Part shown: positions 4,583 through 58,330 of the stretch, one piece after another
Position numbering within the stretch: position 1 is the first letter of the stretch
How the letters are laid out: each line of letters starts with the position of its first letter
Source of the DNA: a virus
IMG/VR virus record: IMGVR_UViG_3300002835_000074
Span: 1-64,000 of that record
DNA: 64,000 nt
Strand: one strand, 5' to 3'
Notes under the pieces: generated by a model
What the model saw: the letters and a program-made list of their open reading frames with translations, nothing else
What the model was told of the DNA's origin: nothing
Databases searched by the model: none
Program-made: the position numbers and the translations under genes

Positions 4583-4608
4583 GGGAGTTGACAACAACTC
4601 CCTTTTTT
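4583..4608 (+). terminator. Rho-independent terminator overlapping the next promoter
   Basis: Stem GGGAGTTG (4583-4590) pairs with CAACTCCC (4595-4602) around the loop ACAA, followed by TTTTTT. It ends the 3.7-4.4 kb transcript. Part of the stem and loop is also the -35 TTGACA of the downstream promoter. Confidence 0.85.
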
Positions 4609-4616
4609 ATTATAAT
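4588..4616 (+). promoter_or_regulatory. consensus promoter with -35 inside terminator hairpin
   Basis: TTGACA (4588-4593) lies in the terminator stem-loop and TATAAT (4611-4616) follows after exactly 17 nt that include the hairpin's second arm and T-tract. Transcription would begin near 4623, just before the GTG at 4641. This is the clearest member of the recurrent terminator/promoter module discussed in the findings. Confidence 0.85.
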
Positions 4617-4640
4617 AATTTGATATATTGTGATATATTT

Positions 4641-5228
4641 GTGCAGGATAATATTCATTTATTGTTTCCAACTTCAGTTTATCGGTCATACGATCTCATT
4701 TCTGAAGAAGAAAATATGAGAATATATCAACACATTCTAAAAGAAAAGGATGTTGTTAAAGGTAGAGGGATAGACTCCTGGTATTCGGGAGCAAATAGCC
4801 CACAAAATTCATTTAATATTGGGTATGAGAATAAAATTTTTGACTTACTATTTGAAAGAATCAATACTAAAGTTAATGAATACGCAAAATTTTTAAATTG
4901 TGACCATCATAAATTCTTTTTAAGTGAGTGGTGGTGGAATGTTTATACTAATAAAAACAGTCAAGAGTTTCATCATCATTTACCATCTTCTATTAGTGGA
5001 GTATATTTCTGTAAAAGACCAGAGGGATCTGCACCTATAGTATTTCACCATCCTAATTTTTATTACTGTACCCCACATTCTATCAGAAATGAGTATAATT
5101 CAGATTCATATTCTATAGAACCAGTTGAACGTTCTTTGTTAATTTTTCAATCATCCACTGTTCATATGGTTCCTCCTGGTCTTAATACTGATCCAAGAGT
5201 TACTATTTCATTTAATTATAAAGTATGA
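4641..5228 (+). CDS. 2OG-Fe(II) oxygenase-like protein (TIGR02466-like)
   Basis: I place the start at GTG 4641: the open frame extends further upstream but would run through the terminator hairpin, and the predicted transcript starts near 4623. Family members typically begin near LLFPT.VY, seen here as IHLLFPTSVY. The core WWWNVYTNKNSQEFHHHLPSS supplies the first His ligands, and LLIFQSSTVHMVPPG...RVTISFN supplies the distal His and the Arg. The product is about 195 residues. It overlaps the GT11 gene by 4 nt and opens the sugar cassette, so a hydroxylated glycan or protein substrate is possible (inference). Confidence 0.7.
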   Translation: MQDNIHLLFPTSVYRSYDLISEEENMRIYQHILKEKDVVKGRGIDSWYSGANSPQNSFNIGYENKIFDLLFERINTKVNEYAKFLNCDHHKFFLSEWWWNVYTNKNSQEFHHHLPSSISGVYFCKRPEGSAPIVFHHPNFYYCTPHSIRNEYNSDSYSIEPVERSLLIFQSSTVHMVPPGLNTDPRVTISFNYKV

Positions 5229-6025
5229 TATCACTCAATCATATTGGCAATCTTGGAAGACTTGCCAATCAAATGTTTCAATATGCTTCTTTAAAAGGAA
5301 TTGCTAGAAATAGGGGATATGGATTTATCATTCCACCTAGATATGTTTTTGGGCAGCATGATGATAATGTCAAAAATTCTGATGTTATTTTATACGATGT
5401 TTTTGAAAATATAGAAAAAAATAATGATTGTGCTCTACAGGATGCCAATACTTTTTGGGAAAGAAAGCATGAATTTGATGAGGAATTATTCATCAATTGC
5501 CCAGATAATGTAGATTTAATGGGATACTTTCAAACCGAAAAATACTTCAAGCATATTGAAGATGAGATACGAGAAGACTTTAGATTTAATGAAGAGTTGT
5601 ATTCTAATTGTAAAGAATTTCTTAAAGAAAATTTTGATAGTGAAGTAATCTCTTTACATATTCGTAGAGGAGATTATACCTCTAATCCAAATCATCCTGT
5701 GCAACCAATTAGTTATTATCAGGAAGCACTTTCTAAACTACCAGAACTTCCTGTTATTGTTTTTTCTGATGATGAATCTTGGTGTAAAGAGCAGGATTTA
5801 TTTAAAGATGATAGGTTTTTGATATCAGAAGAAAACACAACCGATGCTGATCTTTGCTTAATGTCATTATGCGATTATCACATCATTGCAAATTCATCAT
5901 TCTCTTGGTGGGGTGCATGGTTAGCAAAAAGTAAAAAAGTAATTGCCCCCAAAAATTGGTTTGGTGGAGAATGCTATAATAAATCAACAGTTGATTATCC
6001 ATTTGGTAACTTTGAATTTCTATGA
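5225..6025 (+). CDS. alpha-1,2-fucosyltransferase-like glycosyltransferase, family GT11
   Basis: 266 residues with the GT11 hallmarks: N-terminal GRLANQMFQYASLKGIA, the donor-binding motif HIRRGDY, and the C-terminal ANSSFSWWGAWLA. These enzymes transfer L-fucose from GDP-fucose to galactose by an inverting mechanism. The ORF overlaps its neighbours by 4 nt on both sides. No GDP-fucose synthesis genes are certain here (the SDR at 11818 is one candidate), so the donor may come from the host. The product presumably decorates a phage or host glycan. Confidence 0.85.
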   Translation: MISLNHIGNLGRLANQMFQYASLKGIARNRGYGFIIPPRYVFGQHDDNVKNSDVILYDVFENIEKNNDCALQDANTFWERKHEFDEELFINCPDNVDLMGYFQTEKYFKHIEDEIREDFRFNEELYSNCKEFLKENFDSEVISLHIRRGDYTSNPNHPVQPISYYQEALSKLPELPVIVFSDDESWCKEQDLFKDDRFLISEENTTDADLCLMSLCDYHIIANSSFSWWGAWLAKSKKVIAPKNWFGGECYNKSTVDYPFGNFEFL

Positions 6026-6882
6026 AAACGATCATTATTTCTTCTGACCATAATGGGGTCGAGAACAAAGAACAACTAAAGATGTATCTTAAGGGAGAAG
6101 GATATCGGGTTATTGATATTGGACCTTATACTTCTGATGTGAGTGTCGATTATGTTGATTATGCAGCTCAGTTATCTACAATTGTGAGTAATCGTGAGGC
6201 GGACCGAGGTATCCTTATCTGTGGAACTGGTGTTGGTATGAGTATCGTTGCAAATCGTTTTGCTGGTGTCCGTGCTGTTCTAGCTCATAATGAACTCACT
6301 GCGGTTAAGTCTAGAGAGCATAATGATTCCAATGTTCTTTGTTTGGGTACGTGGTTGTCTTCTCAGATTGAAATGAGAGAGATGAGCAAAATGTGGTTAG
6401 ATGAAGCATGGGGAGAAGGTCGTCATGTCAAGCGTGTTGAAAAGATTGATTCACATACTGGCATTGTTTTAACAAATGGAGTTTTTGATATCCTTCATAA
6501 GGGCCATATTGAACTTTTGAAGTTTGCTAGATTGCAGGGAACAAAACTGATTGTTGCTATTGATTCTGACCGCAGAGTAAAACAACTCAAAGGTGACAAT
6601 CGACCTGTTAATAATGAAGAAGATCGTAGAAGGGTTCTTGAGACAAATCGTTATGTTGATGAAGTCATCATTTTTGATTCAACTGAAGAACTTCAAGAAT
6701 TCTATCAAACACTCTCTCCAGATGTAATTGTTAAGGGTTCTGAATGGACTGCTGATGAAGTAAGAAGCAGAGACTGTATTCCAGAGTCTATACAAGTTAA
6801 AGTTTATCCTTTGGTTGGAGACTATTCCACAACCAATACCATGCAAAAAATTAGAGAACTTGAAACATGCGAGAAAATTTAA
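6022..6882 (+). CDS. fusion: RpiB/LacAB sugar-phosphate isomerase + HldE-type nucleotidyltransferase
   Basis: Residues 1-140 are an RpiB domain: SSDHNG at 7-12, and ICGTGVGMSIVANR with catalytic-type C67. Residues about 148-286 are a cytidylyltransferase-fold domain resembling the C-terminal half of HldE (heptose-1-phosphate adenylyltransferase): TNGVFDILHKGH at 151-162 with HKGH as the HxGH nucleotide motif, and a later VKGSEW. An aldose/ketose isomerase fused to a sugar nucleotidyltransferase suggests two non-adjacent steps of one activated-sugar pathway. The next gene is an HldE-like kinase, which would supply the missing step. The actual sugar (heptose, pentose or other) cannot be read from sequence. 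Confidence 0.85.
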   Translation: MKTIIISSDHNGVENKEQLKMYLKGEGYRVIDIGPYTSDVSVDYVDYAAQLSTIVSNREADRGILICGTGVGMSIVANRFAGVRAVLAHNELTAVKSREHNDSNVLCLGTWLSSQIEMREMSKMWLDEAWGEGRHVKRVEKIDSHTGIVLTNGVFDILHKGHIELLKFARLQGTKLIVAIDSDRRVKQLKGDNRPVNNEEDRRRVLETNRYVDEVIIFDSTEELQEFYQTLSPDVIVKGSEWTADEVRSRDCIPESIQVKVYPLVGDYSTTNTMQKIRELETCEKI

Positions 6883-7643
6883 AGTATCTAATTGTTGGTG
6901 ATACCATCATTGATGAAACTCTAGAACTTAGGGCAATCGGACTATCACTAGAGTCTCCAACAATCAAAACGGTAATTGAAGAGCACAGTTATGATTTTGG
7001 TGGCGCTGCTAATGTTGCCAAGTTTCTTCGTGGATTTGGTAGAGACGTAACATTTGCAACATCAATGTCTGATAAAGACTGTGATACTTTTGAGTTGCAT
7101 TATGATCTCCCAGTAAAAAGTTTTTTCCAGGGTCGTAATAATACTAAAACAAGATACTGGGTTAATCATGGAGATAGTCGATACAATCATCTACAAGTTA
7201 ATGATGTCAATAATGAGTTTTCAAAATCGTTCTTAGAAAATTTTGATATTGATGAGTTTGATATCATTGCTTTTGCTGATTACCGTTGTGGATTTATTAC
7301 AGAATCATTCATCAAACATGCAACTGATTCTGGAAAAATTACATATGCCTCTTCTCAGGTATCGAGTAAGACATCAAACTATGATAGGTATTGGGCGGTT
7401 GATTACTTAGTCTGTAATCAAGAGGAAGCAAAACACGTAGATCGGGTAACAAATATCTGTGTAACAAAAGGTGCAGATGGTTGCATGATGAACGGTGTTA
7501 ATTATCCAGCAACGCCTGTGGAAAATGTGGTAAATACTATTGGTGCAGGAGATTGTTTTTATGCAGCTCTTCTAGCAACTGGTGACCCAGTTTTTGCTAA
7601 CCAAGTCGCCGCTGAATTTGTATCTAAACCATTACATGAATAA
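6867..7643 (+). CDS. PfkB-family sugar kinase, HldE N-domain-like
   Basis: 258 residues starting MRENLKYLIVGDTIIDE. The N-terminal glycine motif DFGGAANVAKFL and the C-terminal catalytic motif NTIGAGDCFYAAL (D229 as base) define a ribokinase/PfkB enzyme, and the segment around FGGAANVA resembles HldE/RfaE kinases. It is shorter than the usual ~310 residues, mostly at the C-terminus. It overlaps the RpiB-HldE(C) fusion by 16 nt, so kinase and nucleotidyltransferase halves, normally one protein in E. coli, are present but split, with an isomerase added. A likely role is phosphorylation of the sugar phosphate made by the isomerase. Confidence 0.8.
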   Translation: MRENLKYLIVGDTIIDETLELRAIGLSLESPTIKTVIEEHSYDFGGAANVAKFLRGFGRDVTFATSMSDKDCDTFELHYDLPVKSFFQGRNNTKTRYWVNHGDSRYNHLQVNDVNNEFSKSFLENFDIDEFDIIAFADYRCGFITESFIKHATDSGKITYASSQVSSKTSNYDRYWAVDYLVCNQEEAKHVDRVTNICVTKGADGCMMNGVNYPATPVENVVNTIGAGDCFYAALLATGDPVFANQVAAEFVSKPLHE

Positions 7644-8328
7644 GGCAATTGAAGATTGTTTATCTCTGAACAAAAGTTTAAAGGAAAACAGTTTAGTCAA
7701 ACTAACTTGGGGAAATGCCAGTGTGCTTACTGAAGATGGTAAGCATATTGTTATTAAACCTTCTGGGATTGAGTTTGATAAACTTACGTTTAGCCAACTT
7801 TGTATTGTCGAACTTTATACTGGAAAATTAATTTCTGGTATGAAACCCTCTGTCGATACAGCAATTCATTTGGAAATTTATAAGGCATTTCCAGAGATTA
7901 AATCAGTTATTCATAGTCATTCAAAGTTTGCAACTTCATGGGCACAGGCACTTAAACCAATTCCTATTTTAGGGACAACTCACGCCGATTACTTTCTATC
8001 TGATATTCCAGTTGCTAGACAACTAGAAAAGTTTGAACTTGATGAATATGAAAAGAATCTGGGACAGTGCGTAGTTGATTTTTATCAATCTAAGAAAATA
8101 AATCCACTTAACATACCTGCCATCCTTTTGCCTGGGCATGGTGTTATGGTATTCTCAGATTCATCTAAAAGAACACTAGAATGTGCTATAGTGTTAGAGG
8201 AAATTGCTGAAATGGCTTACTACACCACCTCAATCAATCCACATATTCAACCATGTAGATTGAGTAGAGACTTGTATAAAAAACATTTTGAACGAAAGAA
8301 TGGAATCAACAAATACTACGGACAATAG
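7636..8328 (+). CDS. L-ribulose-5-phosphate 4-epimerase-like protein (class II aldolase fold)
   Basis: 230 residues, almost the length of E. coli AraD (231). Seen: KLTWGNAS, KPSGIEFD, the zinc site H93-S-H95 (VIHSHSKFATSWAQ) and H168 (LPGHGVMVF), GTTHADYF, and D74 in PSVDTAIH where AraD-type epimerases have Asp and aldolases have Glu. I start at ATG 7636; the frame continues upstream to 7582, but that part is shadow of the kinase gene. In this cassette it may epimerise a pentulose phosphate such as ribulose/xylulose 5-phosphate or a related sugar. A UlaF/SgbE-type substrate is equally possible. Confidence 0.8.
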   Translation: MNKAIEDCLSLNKSLKENSLVKLTWGNASVLTEDGKHIVIKPSGIEFDKLTFSQLCIVELYTGKLISGMKPSVDTAIHLEIYKAFPEIKSVIHSHSKFATSWAQALKPIPILGTTHADYFLSDIPVARQLEKFELDEYEKNLGQCVVDFYQSKKINPLNIPAILLPGHGVMVFSDSSKRTLECAIVLEEIAEMAYYTTSINPHIQPCRLSRDLYKKHFERKNGINKYYGQ

Positions 8329-8725
8329 TTACGGGAGGCAAGAACTTCCTCTTGTACTTAAGTGTGAAGAAAAAAGAGAGAAGTATTGGGGATACATCAC
8401 TACCGTATTTGCTACTGATGACTTTACCTTAAAAGAAGTCTTTATGAAAGCGGGTACTCAAAGTAGTATGGAGTATCACGTCACTAAAGATGAATATTAT
8501 TATATTCAATCTGGAAAACTTAAAGTTGGTATGAGAATTGGTCGTGCCAAAAATAAATCTATCATTTTAGAAGCAGGAGATGTATTTCATATTCCTCCTG
8601 GTTTGATGCATATGCGTATTGCATTGGAGGATACTATTGTGGTAGAATGGTCAAATAAAGACGATGATGAAGATTCAAACATCGTTGAAGATGGAAAAAC
8701 CTACGTATTTAAAGAGGACGAATGA
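8300..8725 (+). CDS. cupin protein, sugar-phosphate isomerase-like
   Basis: About 141 residues forming one cupin barrel. Motif 1 is SMEYHVTKDEYYYIQSGKLKVG and motif 2 is LEAGDVFHIPPGLMHMRIA, with His/Glu metal ligands at H and E of HVTKDE and at the later H. It resembles the type II phosphomannose isomerase/GMP cupin and other small sugar cupins, so isomerisation or epimerisation of a sugar phosphate is likely. ATG 8300 is preferred over the upstream TTG at 8288. It overlaps both neighbours, as expected for the operon. Confidence 0.7.
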   Translation: MESTNTTDNSYGRQELPLVLKCEEKREKYWGYITTVFATDDFTLKEVFMKAGTQSSMEYHVTKDEYYYIQSGKLKVGMRIGRAKNKSIILEAGDVFHIPPGLMHMRIALEDTIVVEWSNKDDDEDSNIVEDGKTYVFKEDE

Positions 8726-9393
8726 ACTATCTTTTTGCTGATACAGCTAATCTTGATGAAATTATTAAAGCAAATGAAATGGGTGCCATTCAAGGTGTAA
8801 CAACCAACCCTTCCATTATTGCTAAAGAACCAAAGGGAAGTTTTGATGCACTAATTCAAAAACTTGCTGAGTATTGTGGTAGTGAAGATCTTTCTCTGAG
8901 TGCTGAAGTGTTTGCCCTAGATTATGAGGGCATGGTTCGTCAAGCAAGTGAAATGTATGAAAGGTTTTATCCTCTTTGCAATAAGTTTCATGTGAAAATT
9001 CCAGTTGGATTTGATGGTCTTCGTGCAATCAAAACTGTTTCCAAGGCAGGTGTGCAAATCAATGCCACTGCTTGCTACAGTGAGCAGCAACTGCAACTGT
9101 GTGCTTCTGCTGGTGCTCATTACGTTTCTCTCTTTTACTGCCGCCTGAAGCAGCATGGTGGAGATGTTGCAAAGGTTCTTGACCGAACCAAGAATTACAT
9201 TTATGAGAACGCCCTAGATTGTGAGATTATCGCTGGCAGTATCCGTACTCAAACTGATGTTTCTGATGCTTGGAAAGAAGGTGCCGATATCGTAACGACT
9301 GGTCTTCCCGTTATTCTTGAGATGGTTGAGCATCCTAAGAGCACTGAAGCAATCGAACGCTTTGATAAGGACTTCTCTGCATGGCTGAACTGA
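8722..9393 (+). CDS. talC: transaldolase (TalC/FSA family)
   Basis: 223 residues, single (beta/alpha)8 barrel. Seen: FADTANLDEI with D7, GVTTNPSI, and the Schiff-base lysine K92 in FHVKIPVGFDG, followed by NATACYSEQQLQLC. Length and motifs fit the short TalC/MipB class typical of cyanophages. It interconverts fructose 6-phosphate and erythrose 4-phosphate with sedoheptulose 7-phosphate and glyceraldehyde 3-phosphate. Its ATG overlaps the cupin stop. Its base composition looks richer in G+C than the flanking glycosyltransferase genes. The location inside a sugar cassette with HldE-like genes is notable because sedoheptulose 7-phosphate is the precursor of ADP-heptose. Confidence 0.93.
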   Translation: MNYLFADTANLDEIIKANEMGAIQGVTTNPSIIAKEPKGSFDALIQKLAEYCGSEDLSLSAEVFALDYEGMVRQASEMYERFYPLCNKFHVKIPVGFDGLRAIKTVSKAGVQINATACYSEQQLQLCASAGAHYVSLFYCRLKQHGGDVAKVLDRTKNYIYENALDCEIIAGSIRTQTDVSDAWKEGADIVTTGLPVILEMVEHPKSTEAIERFDKDFSAWLN

Positions 9394-11124: not shown

Positions 11125-11125
11125 G

Positions 11126-16881: not shown

Positions 16882-17597
16882 AACTAAGTATTTTTTCTCC
16901 AGTTGTTAATTTTCCTCAGTTCTTGGAATTGCAATGCATTCAGTTCCAAGAAAATCTGACGTGTGATTATCGTCTTTTTGCAATAGATGATTCAAAGGAT
17001 CCAGATATTAGCAATGAGTTCATGAGAATTTGTGAGATGTATGATGCAACATACATCAAGAATATGAATTCAGATGTTGCTGGACCTTCGGCATCTCACG
17101 CAAATGCAATTCAATATGCACTTGATAATATCATCTATAGGTCTTGTATGGATGATGTTGTTTTCCTTGTGGATAGTGATTGCTTTTTGATGGAAAAGTT
17201 TGATATGGTCAATTATATGGAAGATAAAGTTATATCTTCATATATGCAAAGTCGAGAAGATGTTAATTATCTTTGGCCAGGATTTACTCTTTTAAATATG
17301 CCTAAATTAAAAGAGATGTCTGGGAGACCAAGATTTTTTCCAGGATCGTTTGGTGGGCAACTGTGTGATACTGGTGGAGAATCTTATAACTTTTTAAACG
17401 AAAATAATATTACCCCAGAATCTATAGACTGTGTATTTGAGGGTGATTATCGTGGTCAAACTCTTATTAATATGGAAACTTTTATGAATGGGAAGTTTCT
17501 TCACTTTAGAGGTGGAACTTTATGGGATGGTAAGGTAAATGTATTCAATCAAAAGGTCGAAATTTTAAACAACATATTGAACCATGGACAAGAATAA
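16878..17597 (+). CDS. GT-A type glycosyltransferase-like protein
   Basis: 239 residues. The N-terminal alpha/beta half leads to DDVVFLVDSDCFLM, a clear DxD motif typical of metal-dependent GT-A enzymes, and the C-terminal part has NGKFLHFRGGTLWDGK, where a late His could complete the metal site. No exact family is recognised. It sits between a methyltransferase and a GT25 gene in the same overlapping operon. Confidence 0.6.
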   Translation: MKLSIFSPVVNFPQFLELQCIQFQENLTCDYRLFAIDDSKDPDISNEFMRICEMYDATYIKNMNSDVAGPSASHANAIQYALDNIIYRSCMDDVVFLVDSDCFLMEKFDMVNYMEDKVISSYMQSREDVNYLWPGFTLLNMPKLKEMSGRPRFFPGSFGGQLCDTGGESYNFLNENNITPESIDCVFEGDYRGQTLINMETFMNGKFLHFRGGTLWDGKVNVFNQKVEILNNILNHGQE

Positions 17598-18375
17598 AGC
17601 AGCGTATAAACTTAAAGGTCTTCCTCCCATCTATTATATCAATCTTGATGGGCAACCAGAAAGGGCACAATATATGGAAGGTCAGTTTAAGTACTGGGAA
17701 ATTGAAAACTTTGAGAGAATCTCTGCTTATGATGGTAGAGAAGATGATCTAGGTTCAATTCTAAAAGGTCGATATCCTGACATGATGAATTCGGGAGAGG
17801 TTGGATGTGTAACTTCTCACCTGAAAGTTCTTAAGCATTTTGTTGAGACCTCTGATGCTCCATGTGCTTTAATCATGGAGGATGATTGTGATATTTCCAC
17901 AGTTTCATATTGGCCATTTACTTGGAAAGATTTCTTTTCCAAAATTCCGTATGCTTATGATGTGGTTCAACTTGCGATTATTAATCCAGCACAAATTAAT
18001 ATTCCAATTCATCGTCGTTTTGTAAATGATTTTTCTACGGCATGTTATTTGATTACTCGTCGTCACGCACAAAAGTTAATTGAACTGCATGTTAGAGGTG
18101 ACAAATATAAACTGGATAATGGAGTTAAGCCAAGGGCAGTTGCAGATGACTTGATTTATAACTCTGGCAATACTTATGCAATCCCTTTATTTCTTTATAA
18201 GATTGAACTTGGATCAACAATCCATACAGAACATGTAGATGTATTTCATAAATCAAGTTATGATGGTCTGTGGGATTTTTGGAAAAACGAATCCAATAAG
18301 ATTGATGATTGGAATCAATTTTTCGAATTGAATCCTTACTATGGAACTCTTCCACCTGGTTGGGAAGGCAAATAG
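17584..18375 (+). CDS. GT25-family glycosyltransferase (second copy)
   Basis: 263 residues. PPIYYINLDGQPERAQYMEGQ, GEVGCVTSHLKVLKHF and CALIMEDDCDIS are the GT25 N-terminal, middle and acidic motifs. It differs clearly from the GT25 at 12675 and is not a recent duplicate by eye. It is the last gene of the sugar cassette; a strong terminator follows at 18415. Confidence 0.82.
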   Translation: MDKNKAAYKLKGLPPIYYINLDGQPERAQYMEGQFKYWEIENFERISAYDGREDDLGSILKGRYPDMMNSGEVGCVTSHLKVLKHFVETSDAPCALIMEDDCDISTVSYWPFTWKDFFSKIPYAYDVVQLAIINPAQINIPIHRRFVNDFSTACYLITRRHAQKLIELHVRGDKYKLDNGVKPRAVADDLIYNSGNTYAIPLFLYKIELGSTIHTEHVDVFHKSSYDGLWDFWKNESNKIDDWNQFFELNPYYGTLPPGWEGK

Positions 18376-18414
18376 TAAGCATTTATACTTAATAAATCGG
18401 GAAACCGTAACAAA

Positions 18415-18438
18415 GGGGGCTTGACGCCCCTTTATTTT
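18415..18438 (+). terminator. terminator of the sugar cassette
   Basis: Stem GGGGC (18416-18420) and GCCCC (18426-18430) close the loop TTGAC, with flanking A-rich/T-rich extension AAA...TTT and TTTATTTTT downstream. The loop TTGAC is the start of the -35 of the next promoter. Confidence 0.8.
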
Positions 18439-18449
18439 TGCTATATAAT
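18421..18449 (+). promoter_or_regulatory. promoter for hli/petF with -35 in the terminator loop
   Basis: TTGACG (18421-18426) begins in the hairpin loop; TATAAT (18444-18449) follows after 17 nt. The predicted start near 18456 gives a short leader to the hli ATG at 18478. This is the second clear case of the terminator/promoter module, and it sits exactly at the border between glycan and photosynthesis genes. Confidence 0.8.
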
Positions 18450-18477: not shown

Positions 18478-18672
18478 ATGACTGTAACAACGAATGAGTA
18501 TGGGCAGCAAAATATGTTTGCTAAAGAGCCCGTAATGTACTATGAAAATTATGGGATGGATACGCCCAATCAAGTAAAGGAGAAAACTAATGGGCGTTGG
18601 GCAATGGTCGGCATTATTGCTGGGTTTATTTCTTATGCTCTCACTGACAAGTTCTTCTTCGGAATCTTCTGA
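18478..18672 (+). CDS. hli: high-light-inducible protein (Hli/Scp)
   Basis: 64 residues with one chlorophyll a/b-binding helix: EKTNGRWAMVGIIAGFISYALTDKFFFG. The ExxNxRxAMxG motif holds the chlorophyll ligands. Hli proteins dissipate excess energy and protect photosystem assembly under stress, here presumably while the infected host makes new D1. The N-terminal 35 residues are soluble. Expressed from the promoter at 18421-18449. Confidence 0.93.
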   Translation: MTVTTNEYGQQNMFAKEPVMYYENYGMDTPNQVKEKTNGRWAMVGIIAGFISYALTDKFFFGIF

Positions 18673-18772: not shown

Positions 18773-18775
18773 ACT

Positions 18776-27879: not shown

Positions 27880-28091
27880 TGGCAGATTTTTCAATTCCTA
27901 ATCTAGGAACTGCTGTTGTTGGATTTGCTTCAACTTCTCCAGTTGGAGTTCAGACAACTTTTACCGTAAATAATAGTATTCCAGTTCAGGAAAATAGAGA
28001 TATTAGTTTTAATGAAACAAGACCTGGATTCTTAACAGGAAGAAGACCTCAAACAGGACAAGTGTTCCCAAGAGGAGTCTATAGCAAGTAG
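27879..28091 (+). CDS. small structural-block protein, 70 residues
   Basis: ATG overlaps the preceding stop by one base (TGATGG). Polar beta-rich protein starting MADFSIPNLGTAVVGFASTS and ending RRPQTGQVFPRGVYSK. It closes the fibre operon before a terminator, so it is probably a small virion component. No family recognised. Confidence 0.6.
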   Translation: MADFSIPNLGTAVVGFASTSPVGVQTTFTVNNSIPVQENRDISFNETRPGFLTGRRPQTGQVFPRGVYSK

Positions 28092-28109
28092 GACAATTCC
28101 AAAACTGGC

Positions 28110-28136
28110 ACACCCCCTTGACGGGGGTGTTTTTTT
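28110..28136 (+). terminator. terminator between fibre operon and psbA
   Basis: Stem ACACCCCC (28110-28117) with GGGGGTGT (28123-28130) around loop TTGAC, then a T-run to 28136. The loop is the first part of TTGACG, -35 of the psbA promoter. Confidence 0.88.
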
Positions 28137-28151
28137 GTGTTAATATAAATA
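28118..28151 (+). promoter_or_regulatory. psbA promoter: terminator-loop -35 plus composite -10/late motif
   Basis: TTGACG (28118-28123), 17 nt, TAATAT (28141-28146) overlapping ATAAATA (28145-28151), giving TAATATAAATA. It has both special traits seen in this window: -35 in a terminator loop and an 11-mer combining a sigma70 -10 with the late motif. The psbA ATG is 161 nt downstream, implying a long leader. Confidence 0.72.
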
Positions 28152-28312
28152 CATCAACACGTTAAAGAATGTAACAAATCCTTAATGTTTGCAACACCCG
28201 CTAACCGAGACCTATGGGTGTATAAATTACGTCTCTCATATCCCCGCTAAGGGTGCGGGGAGCATAGTATCTCCACCATTTCCCTGATGGTCTTACTACC
28301 TGTTTATTACAA
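28152..28312 (+). promoter_or_regulatory. psbA 5' leader with hairpins, no gene
   Basis: No ORF is supported. A stable hairpin CCCCGC (28242-28247) / GCGGGG (28255-28260) with loop TAAGGGT occurs in the middle, and ACCAT-N7-ATGGT lies near 28275-28291, followed by an AT-rich run to the ATG. A long structured leader could control D1 translation or RNA stability (inference). Confidence 0.5.
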
Positions 28313-29395
28313 ATGACTGCTACTCTTTCACGTCAAAAATCACAATCGAATATTTGGGAACAGTTCTGCAACTGGGTTACTTCAACCGATAACCGCCTCT
28401 ATGTGGGTTGGTTTGGCGTTCTGATGATTCCCTGTCTGCTTGCTGCTACGACTTGCTTCATCATCGCATTCATCGGTGCTCCCCCTGTGGATATCGATGG
28501 TATCCGTGAACCCGTTGCTGGTTCACTCATGTACGGAAACAACATCATCTCTGGTGCTGTGATTCCTTCGTCCAATGCTATTGGACTGCACTTTTACCCC
28601 ATCTGGGAAGCTGCTTCCCTAGATGAGTGGCTTTACAACGGTGGTCCTTTCCAACTGGTTGTGTTCCACTTCCTGATCGGTATCTATGCTTATATGGGTC
28701 GTGAGTGGGAACTTTCCTACCGTCTTGGTATGCGTCCATGGATCTGTGTTGCTTATAGCGCACCTGTTGCTGCTGCGAGTGCAGTGTTCCTGGTCTATCC
28801 TTTCGGTCAAGGTTCGTTCTCTGATGCGATGCCTCTGGGTATCTCTGGTACTTTCAACTACATGCTTGTGTTCCAGGCAGAGCACAACATCCTGATGCAC
28901 CCCTTCCATATGCTTGGAGTTGCTGGTGTCTTCGGTGGTTCTCTGTTCAGTGCAATGCACGGTTCTCTGGTTACTTCCTCGCTGGTTCGTGAAACCACTG
29001 AGAACGAGTCCCAGAACTATGGTTACAAGTTTGGTCAAGAAGAAGAGACCTATAACATCGTTGCTGCTCACGGTTACTTTGGACGCCTTATTTTCCAATA
29101 TGCTTCGTTCAATAACTCACGTTCGCTGCACTTCTTCCTTGCTGCCTGGCCTGTTGTAGGCATCTGGTTCACCGCTCTTGGTGTTTCCACGATGGCTTTT
29201 AATCTCAACGGACTGAATTTCAATCAGAGTATCCTGGATAGTCAGGGTCGTGTGCTCAACACTTGGGCAGATGTCCTGAACCGTGCTGGACTCGGAATGG
29301 AAGTGATGCATGAGAGAAACGCCCATAACTTTCCTCTGGACCTCGCTGCTGCCGAAGCAACTCCTGTTGCCTTGACTGCTCCTGCGATTGGTTGA
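28313..29395 (+). CDS. psbA: photosystem II D1 protein
   Basis: 360 residues, full length, unmistakable D1: [18 protein letters not shown], the PGAPPVD-type region, [16 protein letters not shown] at the C-terminus with the processing site after LDLAA, and the chlorophyll/manganese-ligand His residues in the [14 protein letters not shown] region. It replaces rapidly turned-over host D1 so that photosynthesis continues in the infected cell. The coding sequence looks richer in G+C than neighbouring fibre genes, in keeping with exchange with host genes. No intron interrupts it, unlike psbA of some cyanophages. Confidence 0.98.
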
Positions 29396-31053: not shown

Positions 31054-31184
31054 CCGCACAGTATCTTCTATACTTGGTCATCTTCGCATTCGCACTTATC
31101 GTTATTTTTACTGAAGACCACGATGACGATGATGACCAAGATGGAGGAATCCTGCAACCTGCATATTCACAAGGAGGGGCTTGA
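31050..31184 (+). CDS. 44-residue membrane protein translationally coupled to psbD
   Basis: GTG 31050 overlaps the psbD stop as GTGA. The product starts [20 protein letters not shown] (one helix), then a run of acidic residues ([13 protein letters not shown]) and QPAYSQGGA. The stop codon lies inside the terminator hairpin. Coupling to D2 suggests equal expression and perhaps a membrane partner of photosystem II or its assembly; no known Psb subunit is recognised. Confidence 0.55.
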
Positions 31185-31198
31185 CTCCTCCTTTTTTA
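31171..31198 (+). terminator. psbD terminator with TTGACT at the loop
   Basis: Stem AAGGAGGGG / CTCCTCCTT (one G-T pair) with loop CTTGA, then TTTTTT. The loop and closing bases give TTGACT (31181-31186) as in the other modules, but 17 nt downstream the hexamer is only TTTTAA, a poor -10. This copy may be a plain terminator or a weak promoter. Confidence 0.82.
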
Positions 31199-31286: not shown

Positions 31287-31952
31287 ATGATATTAGATCT
31301 GGCACATACGATTGCAGATTATACGATTTGTGGGGAAGGTAATGTATCTGAAAGAGTTGATAAAGATACTTTTTTAATTAAGGCAAGTGGTACAAGTCTT
31401 CATACACTCTCCGAAGAAGATTTGACCTTATGTAATACAAATGGAGCACAGATAGAATTAAGTCATAAGAAACCAAGTATTGAGACACTGTTTCACGCTT
31501 GGATTATGAAAACTTTTCCAGAGATTAACTATATCGCTCATAGTCATCCACCATATACCACACAGATTCTTTGTTCTGATGCAGCAGATGATTTTGCGAA
31601 TCATCGTTGGTTTCCAGATCAAATTGTAAGAAATGGTCCTAAGTCTTGTTTAGTTCCTTATGCTCCTCCTGGAGAAAGAATTCTTGCATTGGTTGAGGAA
31701 TATGTAACCAAGTTTGTGAATGAGGAAGGATATTTTCCTAAACTAATTCTTCTCAAAAATCACGGCATCATTACAGCATCTCCTTATCAGAAAGATTGTG
31801 CATCTGCAAGTTTGATGTGTGAGAAGTCTGCTGAGATTTTTGTTGGTGCCAAACTTCTTGGTGGTGTTCATTTCTTACCACAAGAAGAAGTTGAACATAT
31901 TGAAAACTGTCCTGGAGAAAACTATCGTCGTAATATGTACTTTGAAGAATGA
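31287..31952 (+). CDS. class II aldolase/adducin-family protein
   Basis: 221 residues. GEGNVSERV and IKASGTSLHTL give the phosphate/backbone loop, and the zinc site is formed by the His pair in YIAHSHPPYT and the later KNHGIIT. The position equivalent to AraD Asp is Glu in PSIETLFHAW, as in fuculose/rhamnulose-phosphate aldolases, so an aldolase is likelier than an epimerase. It may serve sugar catabolism or supply three-carbon units, or act in a modified-sugar pathway with the 5-18 kb cassette (inference). Confidence 0.8.
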   Translation: MILDLAHTIADYTICGEGNVSERVDKDTFLIKASGTSLHTLSEEDLTLCNTNGAQIELSHKKPSIETLFHAWIMKTFPEINYIAHSHPPYTTQILCSDAADDFANHRWFPDQIVRNGPKSCLVPYAPPGERILALVEEYVTKFVNEEGYFPKLILLKNHGIITASPYQKDCASASLMCEKSAEIFVGAKLLGGVHFLPQEEVEHIENCPGENYRRNMYFEE

Positions 31953-46059: not shown

Positions 46060-46072
46060 GGAGGTATAAATC

Positions 46073-48577: not shown

Positions 48578-48589
48578 GGAGGAAACAAA

Positions 48590-49318: not shown

Positions 49319-49327
49319 CAATAATCT

Positions 49328-51502: not shown

Positions 51503-51505
51503 TAC

Positions 51506-51534: not shown

Positions 51535-51558
51535 TGATAATAACCTTAGTTGAAGTGT

Positions 51559-54415: not shown

Positions 54416-54419
54416 TCTT

Positions 54420-55202
54420 ATGTCTATACCTGTAATTGGAGTACCTGTTGTTAATAGTACATTCTGGGTTAGTCGTTTACTCATGAGCATCGACTATCCT
54501 GTCGATGAAGTATTCATTGTTAATAATAATGGTCGAGGAGAACTTGATGAAGACTTGGATAAACTGGCAAGTATCAAGCATAAGTATGTGAAAAAAGTTA
54601 AGGTTGCCCACCTTCCTGGCAATCTTGGAGTTGCTGGATCTTGGAACTTGATTATCAAGTGTTATCTGATGTCCCCCTACTGGATTATCTGCAATGATGA
54701 CGTATCCTTTGGTCCAGGATTCTTAGAAGAGATGGTGAATACTGTCAATTCTGATGAAATGATCGGAATGGTTCATGGTAACAAAGGTGACTATGGTGTT
54801 GGTAGTTGGGATTTATTCCTGATTAGAGAAAATATCATTAGGGCATTTGGTCTTTTTGATGAAAATCTATATCCTGCCTATTGTGAAGATGCTGATATGA
54901 TTATGCGTTTCATGCATCGACCAATTCGTAAAGTTATGGAATTGAATAGTATGTACTATCATGGGTTTGGTGAGAAGCAAGAGTATTACACCCATGGAAG
55001 TCAAACTAAAAAGAATGATCCATCTCTGAAAGAAAAACTTGAAGCATCTAATGCAATGAATATTGATTACCTTACTGAAAAGTGGGGTAAAGATTGGAGG
55101 ATTTGTGGTCCAACTGAATTGCCATTTGAGGGTAAAGAACAATTTATTTCTGCAACAACATTTGATTTGGATTTTGTTCGTAGTAAGCACCTAGGATTCT
55201 AA
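54420..55202 (+). CDS. GT2-family glycosyltransferase
   Basis: 260 residues of GT-A fold: VIGVPVVNSTFWVSRLLMSI at the start, VDEVFIVNNNGRGE, PGNLGVAGSWNLII, then CNDDVSFGP (DxD equivalent) and the YCEDADMIMRF block with the ED acid motif of GT2. Rhamnosyl- or related transferase type. Between a methyltransferase fusion and an oxygenase gene, it likely builds or caps a modified glycan. Confidence 0.85.
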   Translation: MSIPVIGVPVVNSTFWVSRLLMSIDYPVDEVFIVNNNGRGELDEDLDKLASIKHKYVKKVKVAHLPGNLGVAGSWNLIIKCYLMSPYWIICNDDVSFGPGFLEEMVNTVNSDEMIGMVHGNKGDYGVGSWDLFLIRENIIRAFGLFDENLYPAYCEDADMIMRFMHRPIRKVMELNSMYYHGFGEKQEYYTHGSQTKKNDPSLKEKLEASNAMNIDYLTEKWGKDWRICGPTELPFEGKEQFISATTFDLDFVRSKHLGF

Positions 55203-55203
55203 T

Positions 55204-55803
55204 ATGAATCAACTATTAAGTGTTAATCCTGAATATAGAAAATCTCAGAGAGTAATCATTGTTGATAATTTCTATAGAGATCCAGATGCTGTAAGAAAAT
55301 TTGCTCTAGAGCAAGATTTCTTTGATGATGCTGGATACATTGGCAGGAGAACTCGTAAGCAATTTTTCATTCCTGGAACAAAAGAAGCATTTGAAGATCT
55401 TCTTGGACAACCAATTATCAAGTGGGAAGACCATGGAATGAATGGTCGCTTTCAGCATAATTGGTCTGGGGAAAAACTTGTTTATCACTGCGATGACCAG
55501 ACTTGGGCTGGTATGGTTTATCTAACACCCGATGCTCCACCACAATGTGGAACTACCATGTGGAGGCATAAAGAAACTAAGATTCACCATAATTCTCAAA
55601 TTGATTGGGCAGCAGGTCAAGGTCTTAAAGTCTTTAATCAAAGAACATTTCTTGATAGAACTCCATATGAACCAGTAGATGTTGCAGGAAATGTCTATAA
55701 CAGATTAGTTCTTTTTAGTGGTGGAAATATTCACTCAGCATCTGAATATTTTGGAGACTGCCTTCAAAACTGCCGCTTGTGGCACATGTTCTTTTTTGAT
55801 TAA
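55204..55803 (+). CDS. 2OG-Fe(II) oxygenase-like protein (DUF6445-like)
   Basis: 199 residues: IIVDNFYRDPDAVRKFALEQ near the start, then VYHCDDQTWAGMVYLTPDAP carrying an HxD motif, and LVLFSGGNIHSASEYFG...RLWHMFFFD, which gives the distal His and the Arg of a double-stranded beta-helix oxygenase. Third oxygenase-like gene here. Its substrate could be a protein or glycan of the preceding island. Confidence 0.65.
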   Translation: MNQLLSVNPEYRKSQRVIIVDNFYRDPDAVRKFALEQDFFDDAGYIGRRTRKQFFIPGTKEAFEDLLGQPIIKWEDHGMNGRFQHNWSGEKLVYHCDDQTWAGMVYLTPDAPPQCGTTMWRHKETKIHHNSQIDWAAGQGLKVFNQRTFLDRTPYEPVDVAGNVYNRLVLFSGGNIHSASEYFGDCLQNCRLWHMFFFD

Positions 55804-55825
55804 ATACTTATACAAAAATTATAAA
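55796..55825 (+). promoter_or_regulatory. promoter of the glutaredoxin gene
   Basis: TTGATT (55796-55801), 18 nt, TATAAA (55820-55825), with TTAAATA (a late-like form) overlapping at 55800-55806. The start would fall at about the ATG 55831, so the leader would be almost absent; a moderate match only. Confidence 0.45.
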
Positions 55826-55830
55826 GAAAT

Positions 55831-56067
55831 ATGAACTTTACAATCTATTCAAAACCAGGTTGTCCATATTGTGACAAAATTAAAAGCGTAATGAAGTTGA
55901 CAAAGATGACACATGTGGTGTATACTCTTGACAAGGACTTTACCGCAGAGGAATTTTACTCCGAGTTTGGTGAGGGGAGTACATTTCCCCAAATTGTTGT
56001 TGATGATAAAAAATTAGGAGGATGTACTGATACAGTTAAGTTTTTACAAGAGCAAAAAATTGTTTGA
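55831..56067 (+). CDS. nrdC: glutaredoxin
   Basis: 78 residues: FTIYSKPGCPYCDKIKSVMK with redox CPYC at 11-14, STFPQIVVDDKKLGGCTDT with the cis-Pro and the GG motif for glutathione binding. It reduces ribonucleotide reductase and other disulphides. Cyanophage members are called nrdC or grx. The stop overlaps the next ATG (TGATGG). Confidence 0.92.
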   Translation: MNFTIYSKPGCPYCDKIKSVMKLTKMTHVVYTLDKDFTAEEFYSEFGEGSTFPQIVVDDKKLGGCTDTVKFLQEQKIV

Positions 56068-56240
56068 TGGCGGACATAAATAAAGACATCCACATTAATC
56101 GTGGAGTTGAATTTATTCTTAATGGAGGAAAAAGAAAGCAACCCAAAGATTTTCATATTATATTCGAGAAGTTGGTTTGCTTTCTGAGACGGGAAGTAAC
56201 CATCTACTTTGAGTTTTCCATTAAAGTAAGGAAAAAGTAG
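56067..56240 (+). CDS. hypothetical protein, 57 residues
   Basis: ATG 56067 overlaps the nrdC stop. Basic beta-rich protein: INKDIHINRGVEFILNGGKR, then FHIIFEKLVCFLRREVTIYF. ATAAATA at 56076-56082 is within its first codons and is more likely coding chance than a promoter. Unknown function. Confidence 0.5.
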   Translation: MADINKDIHINRGVEFILNGGKRKQPKDFHIIFEKLVCFLRREVTIYFEFSIKVRKK

Positions 56241-56262
56241 TAGTTCCCGAGGGAGAAAAACT

Positions 56263-56490
56263 ATGTTAGCAACTAGTTTAGTTTTCGGTTCTTTTTTAAC
56301 CGTATTATTTTTTATAGTTGGAATAATGGGAGGATGGGTTGCAAGAGAATATATGATGAACTATCGGGAAATTCCACGACCTCACCCCGAAATGTTTGAT
56401 GGACAAGGAAATCTAATTCCAGATGAGGTGATTGCATTTAACTTTGAGAACTATCATGACTACGAAGACAACGGCGACGAAGAAGACTGA
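56263..56490 (+). CDS. membrane-anchored acidic protein, 75 residues
   Basis: An N-terminal transmembrane helix (LVFGSFLTVLFFIVGIMGGW), then a soluble tail RPHPEMFDGQGNLIPDEV and an acidic end (HDYEDNGDEED). Single-pass with the tail probably in the cytoplasm. Preceded by GAGGGAGAA. It overlaps the next gene by 35 nt. No family recognised. Confidence 0.6.
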   Translation: MLATSLVFGSFLTVLFFIVGIMGGWVAREYMMNYREIPRPHPEMFDGQGNLIPDEVIAFNFENYHDYEDNGDEED

Positions 56491-57055
56491 ATCAAAATTT
56501 ACGGTTAAGAAGGAATCTCCTATTCCCGATCTTCCTTCAAATCCATTTATTTTTGAGATTTTAAGTCTTGCATGTAAGCAAAAAAGTACAGCAAAAAAGG
56601 TAGAAGTACTTCAAAAGTATTCTCATCCTGCTCTGAAGACTCTTTTTATTTGGAACTTTGATGAGACGGTTGTTTCTATTCTTCCCCCAGGAGATGTACC
56701 TTATGCAGGTACTGATGAACAAACTTCATTCAGCGGAACTCTGTCTGGAAAGATTACAGATGCTGTTTCTAAGATGGGTGAGTTGGGAAGTAGTTCTTTA
56801 GGTTCTCAGGACCAGGGACGCTCATCAATTCGTAAGGAATATAATAAGTTTTATAATTTTGTAAAGGGTGGTAACGATGGATTGAGTTCTCTTCGTAGAG
56901 AAACAATGTTTATTAACATTCTTCAAGGTCTTCATCCTCTTGAAGCAGAAATTGTTATTCTTACTAAGGATAAAAAACTGACAGACAAATACAAACTCAC
57001 CAGGGAAGTAGTTTCACAAGCTTATCCTGATATTAAGTGGGGAGGTCGTTCGTGA
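56456..57055 (+). CDS. conserved cyanophage-type protein, 199 residues (DUF6433-like)
   Basis: Start ATG 56456 inside the preceding gene. After a basic Thr/Lys-rich N-terminus, the core has PFIFEILSLACKQKSTAKKV, then FDETVVSILPPGDVPYAG, and a C-terminal HPLEAEIVILTKDKKLTDKY. This core resembles a widespread T4-like phage protein of unknown role; it is soluble and helical. Family name from memory, so tentative. Confidence 0.6.
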   Translation: MTTKTTATKKTESKFTVKKESPIPDLPSNPFIFEILSLACKQKSTAKKVEVLQKYSHPALKTLFIWNFDETVVSILPPGDVPYAGTDEQTSFSGTLSGKITDAVSKMGELGSSSLGSQDQGRSSIRKEYNKFYNFVKGGNDGLSSLRRETMFINILQGLHPLEAEIVILTKDKKLTDKYKLTREVVSQAYPDIKWGGRS

Positions 57056-57405
57056 GTCAGGTTCGTGATGTAGTTGAAGAAACCCACAATACGGAAAAGC
57101 ATATGGACTATTGGACACCAGCAGAAAAAGAAACCTGTAAGTCACGCTATGGTTGTGATATTTTAATTGAAAATGGTTCATATGCTGATGTCTGTACTAA
57201 AGAAGCACCGAATGATGCTTACATCGTAAAGTATATTGTTGATGAGGAAATTTGTTTTGATTTAACTAGAGGATCACGAATTCGTTTGTTTGATATGTAC
57301 TGGGACAAGTTTCGTGAAAATCTAAAGAGTATTGACTTTGGGTATGGAAGAATCAATCCAAAGTTATGGGGTTATCAAGCACCCAAAACCAAAAAGCGAA
57401 AGTGA
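57052..57405 (+). CDS. hypothetical protein, 117 residues
   Basis: GTG 57052 overlaps the previous stop (GTGA) and is preceded by GGGGAGG, which decides the start over the frame's upstream 57037. SQVRDVVEETHNTEKHMDYW, then CKSRYGCDILIENGSYADVC and IVKYIVDEEICFDLTRGSRI; C-terminus is basic (KTKKRK). Mixed alpha/beta and cytoplasmic. Unknown. Confidence 0.6.
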   Translation: MSQVRDVVEETHNTEKHMDYWTPAEKETCKSRYGCDILIENGSYADVCTKEAPNDAYIVKYIVDEEICFDLTRGSRIRLFDMYWDKFRENLKSIDFGYGRINPKLWGYQAPKTKKRK

Positions 57406-57531
57406 TTTTCTTTTTGGGGTAAAAAATTTCCGCCAAAATTTTTCTTGCGCGAAGGTTTTCATAAATCTTCACGCCTTTTAGTATAATAGAGATACATTTT
57501 TGTATCTATTGTTACTATTTCAAAATAAAAC

Positions 57532-57561
57532 TTGACTATATAGTGTGAATAGGGGTATAAT
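57532..57561 (+). promoter_or_regulatory. sigma70-type promoter TTGACT-N18-TATAAT
   Basis: TTGACT (57532-57537) and TATAAT (57556-57561) 18 nt apart, start near 57568, ATG 57582. The region 57406-57531 upstream has no gene: it is A+T-rich with an imperfect GAAG...CTTC inverted repeat around 57450-57470 and an isolated TATAAT at 57482. Confidence 0.72.
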
Positions 57562-57581
57562 AATCCCCTAACGTTCATCCT

Positions 57582-57788
57582 ATGACTAAAGCACTTTTGC
57601 TTTTAGCATGGGTTCCACTTCTTTCTATTTCTACGCCTCAACTTGCCAAATCTAATCAAGTGACTATAAGTTGCGACGCAGCGTGGGAACTAATGGACAT
57701 CGTTAAAAACGACGATGTAGTAGACCAAAGAAAAGAAGACCGATTGCTATCAGAACTCCGAAAGGACGTTATAAGACTTAAGTGCTAA
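57582..57788 (+). CDS. small exported protein, 68 residues
   Basis: A signal peptide is plausible: MTKALLLLAWVPLLSISTPQ followed by LAKSNQ. The mature part is helical and charged (AAWELMDIVKNDDVVDQRKE...LRKDVIRLKC) with two cysteines that could pair in the periplasm. First gene after a strong early-type promoter. Function unknown. Confidence 0.6.
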   Translation: MTKALLLLAWVPLLSISTPQLAKSNQVTISCDAAWELMDIVKNDDVVDQRKEDRLLSELRKDVIRLKC

Positions 57789-57808
57789 ACTGAATAGGAC
57801 GGAAGTAA

Positions 57809-57994
57809 GCCGACTCGGAACGGATCGTTCATCTATGGAAACAATTCTCTGGACTTGCATTGAGGCTCAAAGACTTATTAGTAATGTAAAACTAAAAATG
57901 GATGAGCCTGCAAGATCTGAACTTATTCAGATCTTTAAAGAAGGATCTCCAAGAACTTGTAAATTCATAGACGCAAAAGCCGACTGAAGGAACG
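57809..57994 (+). repeat. two copies of GCCGACT-N1/3-GGAACG flanking a small gene
   Basis: GCCGACTCGGAACG at 57809-57822 and GCCGACTGAAGGAACG at 57979-57994 precede two consecutive small genes. The G+C-rich pair stands out in an A+T-rich stretch and may be a shared leader, binding site or recombination junction for small-gene cassettes. Confidence 0.45.
57835..57987 (+). CDS. hypothetical protein, 50 residues
   Basis: ATG 57835 to TGA 57987. METILWTCIEAQRLISNVKL, then KMDEPARSELIQIFKEGSPR: a helical soluble protein with two cysteines. The end is shared with the second GCCGACT element. Unknown. Confidence 0.5.
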   Translation: METILWTCIEAQRLISNVKLKMDEPARSELIQIFKEGSPRTCKFIDAKAD

Positions 57995-58026
57995 CTCTTT
58001 AGCCTCAAAATTAAGGAGAAAACCTA

Positions 58027-58191
58027 ATGTCTAAAGTCGTATATCGTGGTGTCGAATATGATACCGCAGAACGTCCAAATCAAACGTTTAAAATTGAACC
58101 CCACGTAGAAATTTATCGTGGTACTATGTTTTACGTTGATGAAAATGGAAACAAACTCTCTATGTCTAAAACTAAGGGAGGTGCAAAATGA
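58027..58191 (+). CDS. DUF4278-like small protein, 54 residues
   Basis: MSKVVYRGVEYDTAERPNQT with a second YRG in HVEIYRGTMFYVDENG: this YRGxxY...YRG pattern resembles DUF4278, small proteins frequent in cyanobacteria. ATG follows AAGGAGAAAA. Possible host-derived regulatory or stress protein. The stop overlaps the next start (ATGA). Confidence 0.55.
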   Translation: MSKVVYRGVEYDTAERPNQTFKIEPHVEIYRGTMFYVDENGNKLSMSKTKGGAK

Positions 58192-58289
58192 ACACTTACT
58201 TCGTTCGCTATCTCAAACTCAAAGCAAAAAAGGAAAAACTCCTTCATAACGCACAACTGAATATGGCGAAGCAACCACAAGTTGCTTGA
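58188..58289 (+). CDS. 33-residue basic micro-protein
   Basis: ATG 58188 overlaps the preceding stop and is preceded by AGGGAGG. MNTYFVRYLKLKAKKEKLLH then NAQLNMAKQPQVA: one basic amphipathic helix. It ends just before the terminator at 58293. Confidence 0.45.
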   Translation: MNTYFVRYLKLKAKKEKLLHNAQLNMAKQPQVA

Positions 58290-58292
58290 AGT

Positions 58293-58320
58293 AAAGGAGG
58301 GTTGATTCCCTCCTTTTTTT
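58293..58320 (+). terminator. terminator with TTGATT loop
   Basis: A perfect 9-bp stem AAAGGAGGG (58293-58301) / CCCTCCTTT (58308-58316) with the six-base loop TTGATT, then TTTT. The whole loop is the -35 hexamer of the next promoter. Confidence 0.88.
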
Positions 58321-58330
58321 ATGTTAAAAT
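58302..58330 (+). promoter_or_regulatory. promoter with the -35 as terminator loop
   Basis: TTGATT (58302-58307) is exactly the terminator loop; TAAAAT (58325-58330) follows after 17 nt. The start near 58337 is 15 nt before the ATG at 58352. A clear module member upstream of the thyX operon. Confidence 0.72.

Follow-up and report, generated by a model that had tools for sequence, protein, structure and literature searches.

Sigma-70 promoters and TransTermHP terminators have been predicted in cyanomyovirus genomes, pstS being one of the regions concerned (Sullivan et al. 2010, PMC3037559). Annotation normally treats the two signals as distinct parts; here we describe sites at which terminator and promoter, addressed to different readers, apparently occupy the same ~45 letters. 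The sites lie in a 64,000-base stretch of virus DNA (hereafter the window), positions 1 to 64,000 of the 100,646-base IMG/VR virus record IMGVR_UViG_3300002835_000074, which carries psbA, psbD, thyX and glycan genes and shows cyanophage matches. Judging from their arrangement, we consider it highly probable that they are bifunctional boundary elements, in which an intrinsic terminator is nested in a promoter of the host sigma70 type.

Among the closest described situations is the recycling of Escherichia coli RNA polymerase after intrinsic termination, reported in vitro (PMC6978380). In that bacterium, 85% of 371 termination sites are placed within 1000 bp of a start site (PMC11347151). The same source gives a termination-to-start distance of 14 to 1742 bp in T7, T3 and SP6, finds that the polymerases of these phages do not recycle and argues that those lytic phages would gain little benefit from it (PMC11347151). 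The wcaG motif, which adjoins one of our sites, has been described as a probable cis-regulatory RNA typically associated with exopolysaccharide or high-light genes (PMC2864571). Among literature titles and the opening lines of abstracts, we found no description of a promoter that encloses a terminator and has its -35 at the hairpin loop.

Results

T-tailed hairpins with a -35 word at the apex

A hairpin scan of both strands of the window returned seven perfect T-tailed hairpins, all of them on the + strand. In five of the seven, TTGAC or TTGAT stands at the apex or next to it. In the rest of the record (~37 kb), the yield was one weak T-tailed hairpin, without TTGA. At each of the five sites the T-run lies immediately 3' of the hairpin on the coding strand; the predicted RNA folds range from -13.1 to -15.5 kcal/mol (z -3.1 to -6.0), and the stems and flanks differ from site to site. 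Four of the sites form -35/-10 pairs, beginning at 4588/4611, 18421/18444, 28118/28141 and 58302/58325, with a spacer of 17 nt in each. The bit scores in the following list are those of R1, a covariance model whose training rows include three of the window elements or their twins.

4581..4604, + strand: terminator hairpin 1 with its T-run; TTGACA at 4588-4593 (R1 20.7 bits, E 0.026, outside the training set)
4611..4616, + strand: -10 TATAAT, 17 nt past TTGACA; putative transcription start ~4623
18413..18433, + strand: terminator hairpin 2, loop TTGAC, -35 TTGACG at 18421-18426 (R1 43.1 bits, site in the training set)
18444..18449, + strand: -10 TATAAT
28110..28130, + strand: terminator hairpin 3, loop TTGAC, -35 TTGACG at 28118-28123 (R1 34.9 bits, in the training set)
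28141..28146, + strand: -10 TAATAT followed by AAATA, like the psbA promoter kept near -195 in other phages
31171..31193, + strand: terminator hairpin 4, 3' of psbD, loop CTTGA (R1 16.8 bits, E 0.23, outside the training set)
58293..58316, + strand: terminator hairpin 5, loop TTGATT, -35 at 58302-58307 (R1 41 bits, identical sequence in the training set)
58325..58330, + strand: -10 TAAAAT; putative transcription start ~58337

The two sites on which the model had not been trained were found weakly (E 0.026 and E 0.23), the match at 31171 spanning positions 5-28 of 40.

Our re-scan located the five hairpins, their loop words and their -10 words where a preliminary description of this DNA had put them. 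That description also held that the loop is the -35 of the next promoter and that the -10 always follows at 17 nt. The first statement is exact at sites 2, 3 and 5 and approximate at sites 1 and 4; at 4581 the loop is ACAA and TTG is paired in the stem, so that "loop" can be taken only loosely there. The second stands at four of the five sites and fails at 31171 (-35 at 31181), where TTTTAA is the only word at that distance, and "always" is thus to be read as four in five.

Chance expectation and occurrence in other cyanophages

The window was compared with 120 whole-window dinucleotide shuffles and 120 shuffles within 500-base blocks, all read by one scorer (score at least 19). The real sequence gave seven hairpins, five with TTGA[CT] and four of the latter fused to a -10 at 17 nt. 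Mean values for the whole-window shuffles were 0.09 hairpins, 0.02 with TTGA[CT] and 0 fusions, and for the block shuffles 0.23, 0 and 0, respectively; the maxima in any of the 240 shuffles were two hairpins, one with TTGA[CT] and no fusion.

A wider pool of 447 distinct terminators was drawn from viral psbA and thyX loci and from 16 cyanophage records; it leaves aside T4, HTVC008M, loci L174-L252 and loci L168-L171, which had been selected via a pattern containing the element. TTGA[CT] stood at the apex of 83 of the 447, vs. a mean of 7.8 and a maximum of 16 when the apex region was shuffled. A -10 followed at 17 nt in 68 of these 83 terminators (at 16 nt in four and at 18 nt in four more), compared with a mean of 9.0 and a maximum of 17 when tails were re-paired from other terminators. 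Among the 364 terminators with other apex words, 65 combined a -35 of at least 3/6 with a 17-nt spacing to the -10, a number to which chance matches contribute. Exact TATAAT occurred 76 times within 44 nt of the loop, and 50 of the 76 lay 17-19 nt past it.

At the level of whole records, 23 fused sites (TTGA[CT], -10 of at least 4/6) were found in 14 of the 16 cyanophages. The spacer was 17 nt at 19 sites, 16 nt at three and 18 nt at one, this last (S-RSM4 72977) looking spurious, with GTTAAT as its -10 and no upstream open reading frame (ORF) found. The fused arrangement is thus genuine and widespread among the cyanomyoviruses studied, and the 17-nt spacing is a rule, not a universal. The enrichment check proposed in the preliminary description came out clearly, hairpin plus TTGA plus -10 at 17 nt far exceeding the shuffles both in the window and in related cyanophages. 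Its "one compact element" does recur in cyanomyoviruses, with two amendments: spacings other than 17 nt occur, and the loop need not hold the -35, because a second form, described below, relies on an upstream box.

A record scan of T4 and HTVC008M detected no fusion with a TTGA[CT] apex. KVP40 (W18), Ma-LMM01 (W19), G002 and G003 entered the model search alone and stand outside the record counts. Two of the three model hits in KVP40, read by eye, resemble promoters without this hairpin, and the three weak hits in T4 are terminators without a -35. In IMG/VR loci holding the pattern GGGG-N5-CCCC-T6, TTGA[CT] stood at the apex of one of 105 terminators, and TTGA was present in none of 84 occurrences of that hairpin (79 of 120 IMG/VR stretches). 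A feature of all phages is therefore unsupported in this sample.

Gene boundaries occupied by the elements

The elements mark many unrelated gene boundaries, that of psbA included, in a major group of marine and freshwater phages. Genes downstream of the sites include psbA, hli-like genes, those of the thyX block, purC and those for GDP-mannose dehydratase, an adenine methylase and a SegE-like endonuclease; one site after hsp20 precedes a protein just under the DUF6561 cut-off. The neighbouring ORFs of the 23 sites were picked mechanically, and the distances are upper bounds: the nearest upstream stop lay 3-47 nt before the hairpin at 13 of the 23 sites and 100-300 nt from it at some others, and the start codon lay 13-27 nt past the putative transcription start at 13 of the 23.

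In the window, the separation of functionally different blocks that had been claimed for every site is seen at the wcaG/glycan, glycosyltransferase/hli-like, psbA and thyX sites, and the hairpin at 31171 sits between psbD and an aldolase-like gene. The flanking genes at the first, second and fourth hairpins are as follows.

4641..5228, + strand: 2OG-Fe(II) oxygenase-like gene that opens the block after hairpin 1, with a presumed GTG start (Pfam PF13759, E 3.7e-14)
17584-18375: family-25 glycosyltransferase, upstream neighbour of hairpin 2
18478..18672, + strand: 64-amino-acid hli-like protein, resembling by eye proteins annotated as high-light-inducible in DSL-LC02 and S-H9-2
31287..31952, + strand: class II aldolase-like gene downstream of hairpin 4 (Pfam PF00596, E 6.5e-27)

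The 64-amino-acid protein had no Pfam hit of its own. A CRISPR-repeat-like match on the - strand of the window at 61203-61239 (CRISPR-DR21, 35.8 bits, gathering score 48) is probably due to chance.

Elements upstream of thyX and covariation of the stem

The fifth hairpin opens the thyX block:

58352..58525, + strand: 57-amino-acid ORF opening the block
58682..59320, + strand: thyX, with the -35 word ~380 nt upstream of its start (Pfam Thy1, E 2.3e-49)

With a hairpin, a -35 of at least 3/6, a -10 of at least 4/6 and a spacer of 16-18 nt as criteria, an element was present upstream of thyX in 62 of the 73 loci with enough sequence. The spacer was 17 nt in 55 of the 62, TTGA[CT] was present in 40, and both applied to 38; in loci L089 and L090 the distance from -35 to thyX start is 381, matching the window. 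The 58 distinct sequences contain 25 different 7-nt arms next to an unchanged -35, T-run and -10, a uniformity that is partly built in because both the hairpin and the -35/-10 score served to select the elements. Across 37 elements, two-sided changes occurred at all seven stem pairs (7/7). Two-sided cells numbered 62 vs. 26.6 after shuffling, none of 500 shuffles being as high, and were fewer with slid partners.

The psbA promoter with and without a hairpin

Downstream of hairpin 3 the window contains:

28182..28275, + strand: PhotoRC-II RNA (RF01717), the psbA leader (Rfam 79.5 bits, E 3.7e-12)
28313..29395, + strand: psbA, photosystem II D1 (Pfam Photo_RC, E 1.5e-89)

The RNA begins ~29 nt past the putative psbA transcription start, as expected for a psbA leader. 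TTGAC-N17-(-10) lies between -217 and -172 in 54 of 80 distinct psbA upstream regions, and in 46 of the 54 between -205 and -185, usually with AAATA after it. No hairpin accompanies 47 of these 54 promoters, whose spacers are ordinary; the promoter half thus exists alone. The terminator is overlaid on the promoter in three (the window, L037 and L039), in the form CCCCC-TTGAC-GGGGG-T7, and in four (S-SKS1, L027, L071 and L074) the promoter is kept and a T-tailed hairpin lies before it, this hairpin being itself a fused element in S-SKS1 and L074. Series layouts, with terminator and promoter apart, were seen at both psbA and thyX. From this distribution, the psbA terminator looks like an overlay on the promoter; its loss elsewhere may also have occurred.

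When the orientation of the upstream region was judged, crudely, from open frames, hairpins were found at psbA in 0 of 21 divergent loci, in 5 of 36 that were co-directional and in 2 of 15 left unclassified, which is no more than suggestive of a link between the hairpin and upstream transcription.

A second form with a palindromic box

Many cyanophage promoters contain a palindromic box, approximately GMCANTT-N4-AACTGKCACA. In the window it overlaps the start of hairpin 3:

28091..28112, + strand: palindromic box GGACAATT..AACTGGCACA, 3' half at 28103-28112 (26.4 bits, matrix from 58 cyanophage boxes)

The 3' half of the box started 38-41 nt ahead of a -10 in 49 of 121 boxes vs. 14 of 476 scrambled words. 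The box was further evaluated with two pattern scans of viral contigs in which the left half-site stood outside the pattern. Among the matches listed, a left half-site of at least 5/6 accompanied 110 of 146 boxes at the right gap vs. 6 of 92 at a gap shortened by 10 nt, and a T-tailed hairpin followed 29 of 146 vs. 0 of 92, a comparison in which the shortened gap leaves less room for a hairpin. In this second form, a box at ~-51 would replace the -35, and the whole terminator would occupy the interval between box and -10. At least 9/10 of the degenerate word of the box half was present in 10 of the 68 fusions with 17-nt spacing, including L009, a twin of the window psbA site. Since box plus exact TATAAT was found in just one of 121 host-family genomes, the reader of the box may be phage-encoded.

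At window position 3660 and at L008 2065, the box is directly followed by TTGACA and then by a -10 at a 17-nt spacing. Further palindromic boxes are located at L008 11219 and 16942. By eye, a weak CAT-nn-CAACA-like word ~10 nt past the -10 seems to recur in box promoters.

The wcaG RNA next to the first element

The first hairpin is separated by a 6-nt gap from a structured RNA:

4474..4574, + strand: wcaG RNA (RF01761; Rfam 100.7 bits, E 3.9e-18)

In DSL-LC03, wcaG ends 3 nt before a fused element located ahead of GDP-mannose dehydratase; the wcaG match of S-H9-2, by contrast, does not adjoin the fused element there. wcaG-like ends were collected in the fetched loci, window included, by requiring an exact 15-mer together with a word upstream of it. 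Among the matches listed, 14 of 20 distinct ends had a scored T-tailed hairpin within 70 nt downstream, and two extra hairpins (L592 and L665) were recognized by eye. Four of the 14 listed hairpins pass the strict -35/-10 cut, nine have TTGCAT and TATAAT at 17 nt, and in one neither word is good. The arrangement would fit either an attenuator with a second promoter or the 3' end of the upstream unit, and wcaG RNAs may therefore sit at transcript 3' ends, instead of or besides in leaders.

In DSL-LC03, the annotated start of GDP-mannose dehydratase (OR003938 170347-171513) comes before both wcaG and the fused element, and an ATG near 170512 suits the putative promoter better. A wcaG-like end followed by a T-tailed hairpin is also present at L336 10355-10480, and at 4429-4460 of the window a hairpin (CTTGGTTTCTTAAAACCAAGTGGTGGAG) that looks similar to the first stem of wcaG stands just ahead of the wcaG RNA.

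Host genomes

The model search gave no hit in seven host genomes (150 candidates scored in each). Hits with E of at most 0.05 were obtained in 17 of 121 host-family genomes (54 candidates scored in each), and the twelve host loci inspected were mostly plain terminators. A host feature is thus unsupported within the candidates scored.

Discussion

The architecture of these elements, its enrichment, the covariation of the stems, the conserved positions and the hairpin-free psbA promoter can be read directly from the DNA. As RNA, the hairpin and U-run would end transcripts of the preceding gene; as DNA, the apex would be the -35, and the 3' arm and T-run would make up the 17 bp that separate it from the next gene's -10. 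The two codes are compatible because the terminator leaves its loop free and the promoter its spacer; an apex of ~5 nt, an arm of ~8 nt and a tail of ~8 nt add up to a normal spacer, and since arm and T-run fill these 17 bp, both signals can be good together. Termination and initiation at the elements, and with them an insulating role, are what this layout would predict: the psbA, hli-like, thyX, glycan and purC modules, among others, would each have a start of their own, with read-through from co-directional upstream genes blocked. A polymerase that halts within the T-run would be positioned over the following promoter, where it could restart, block or leave.

Several observations weigh against a terminator nested in a promoter as a general account. 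Site 31171 has no credible -10 at 17 nt, TTTTAA (31204) standing there alone, and scans of the whole records detected no fusion in Syn9 and none of the TTGA[CT] form in S-CRM01. At psbA, 31 of the 36 co-directional loci lack a hairpin. The identical host loci L568-L570 contain a terminator with TTGAAC at its apex and AATAAT at 16 nt, and in host L573 TTGCCG is paired with AATAAT at a 17-nt distance; a weak host counterpart is therefore possible. The selection of the thyX elements and the shorter-gap control for the box, given above, belong on the same side.

Within the reading as a nested terminator and promoter, both functions may be real and their overlap merely save space. This is a plausible sub-case, to which we give somewhat less than even weight. 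The close spacing of stops and start codons around the elements, each at 13 of 23 sites, and the existence of series layouts at psbA and thyX are in its favor; the ~30 nt saved would seem of little use where the upstream stop lies 100-300 nt away.

It is a good deal more doubtful, though worth setting out, that the nesting acts as a coupled switch by which upstream transcription sets the output of the photosynthesis and nucleotide modules, with a box-binding phage protein driving the second form. RNA would then be released at ~-20 to -13 relative to the next start, and the polymerase would either be handed over to the promoter or block it; conversely, a polymerase poised at the promoter could block incoming transcription and sharpen termination.

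The single-function explanations fare worse. That the elements are promoters only, with a non-terminating hairpin whose arms and T-run tune strength as a spacer or upstream feature, would agree with the conserved promoter positions, and a T-rich spacer could alter promoter strength. We nevertheless hold it improbable, as pairing of the stem is kept via two-sided changes, the folds are strong for the strand that would be read as RNA with the T-run on its 3' side, and hairpin-free psbA promoters have ordinary spacers. Slightly less credible still are terminators only, the TTGAC apex being an RNA-level loop or protein site and the -10 words arising by chance in AT-rich sequence after the T-run. 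TTGA-type loops in a few host terminators, and the loop without a -10 at 31171, would fit this. Against it stand the concentration of -10 words at 17 nt far above the re-paired tails (68 of 83), the psbA promoter in the same place without a hairpin at 47 loci, and the rarity of a TTGA[CT] apex among the GGGG-N5-CCCC-T6 loci (1 of 105).

Phage N4 virion RNA polymerase promoters have a fixed-loop hairpin near the start site, and a comparable DNA hairpin (cruciform), serving as promoter or operator for a phage factor, could be imagined here. It is very unlikely, for a DNA hairpin needs no one-sided T-run, the -35 and -10 words with 17-nt spacing are those of sigma70, the stem letters are free and most relatives have the psbA promoter without a hairpin. 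Finally, five lookalike sites in one window might suggest chance, or a single repeat that has spread through the genome by duplication. The former is rejected on the strength of 240 shuffles without a fusion and of the re-paired tails, and the latter because stems and flanks differ and because other phages have thyX, psbA, hli-like and wcaG-type sites, each at the corresponding boundary.

Comparison with known systems

Like an intrinsic (Rho-independent) terminator, the elements have a G+C-rich hairpin with a T-run and a strong predicted fold; they differ in that the apex is often TTGAC or TTGAT and a -10 box terminates the tail. Like a sigma70-type (phage early) promoter, they have TTGACA-like and TATAAT-like hexamers, mostly at 17-nt spacing, whereas here one arm of a terminator and its T-run make up the spacer, and the hairpin apex holds the -35. 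In the available portions of the cyanomyovirus study that predicted both kinds of signal (Sullivan et al. 2010, PMC3037559), overlap of promoter and terminator is not mentioned. Our elements provide predictions of the starts and ends of transcripts for key auxiliary genes.

Of the 21 hairpins scored in T4, three continue into TATAAATA-like words and several are followed by GTTTAC-like words; in contrast with the cyanophage elements, the T4 promoter begins past the T-run, and two T4 hairpins hold TTGAA. The TATAAATA-like words of T4 and CTAAATA-like words of Syn9 after terminators (L310-L327) might be a late-promoter version of such packing. The wcaG motif adjoins both the first window element and the GDP-mannose dehydratase element of DSL-LC03, and differs here from its published description in that a promoter-bearing terminator comes directly after the RNA.

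Polymerase recycling is a functional parallel, in that a terminator lies near the next start, from which a retained polymerase could restart. Here, in contrast, the two signals overlap and the polymerase would be that of the host, and the elements offer natural constructs for asking whether, directly after termination, a polymerase can start anew from a promoter that overlaps the terminator.

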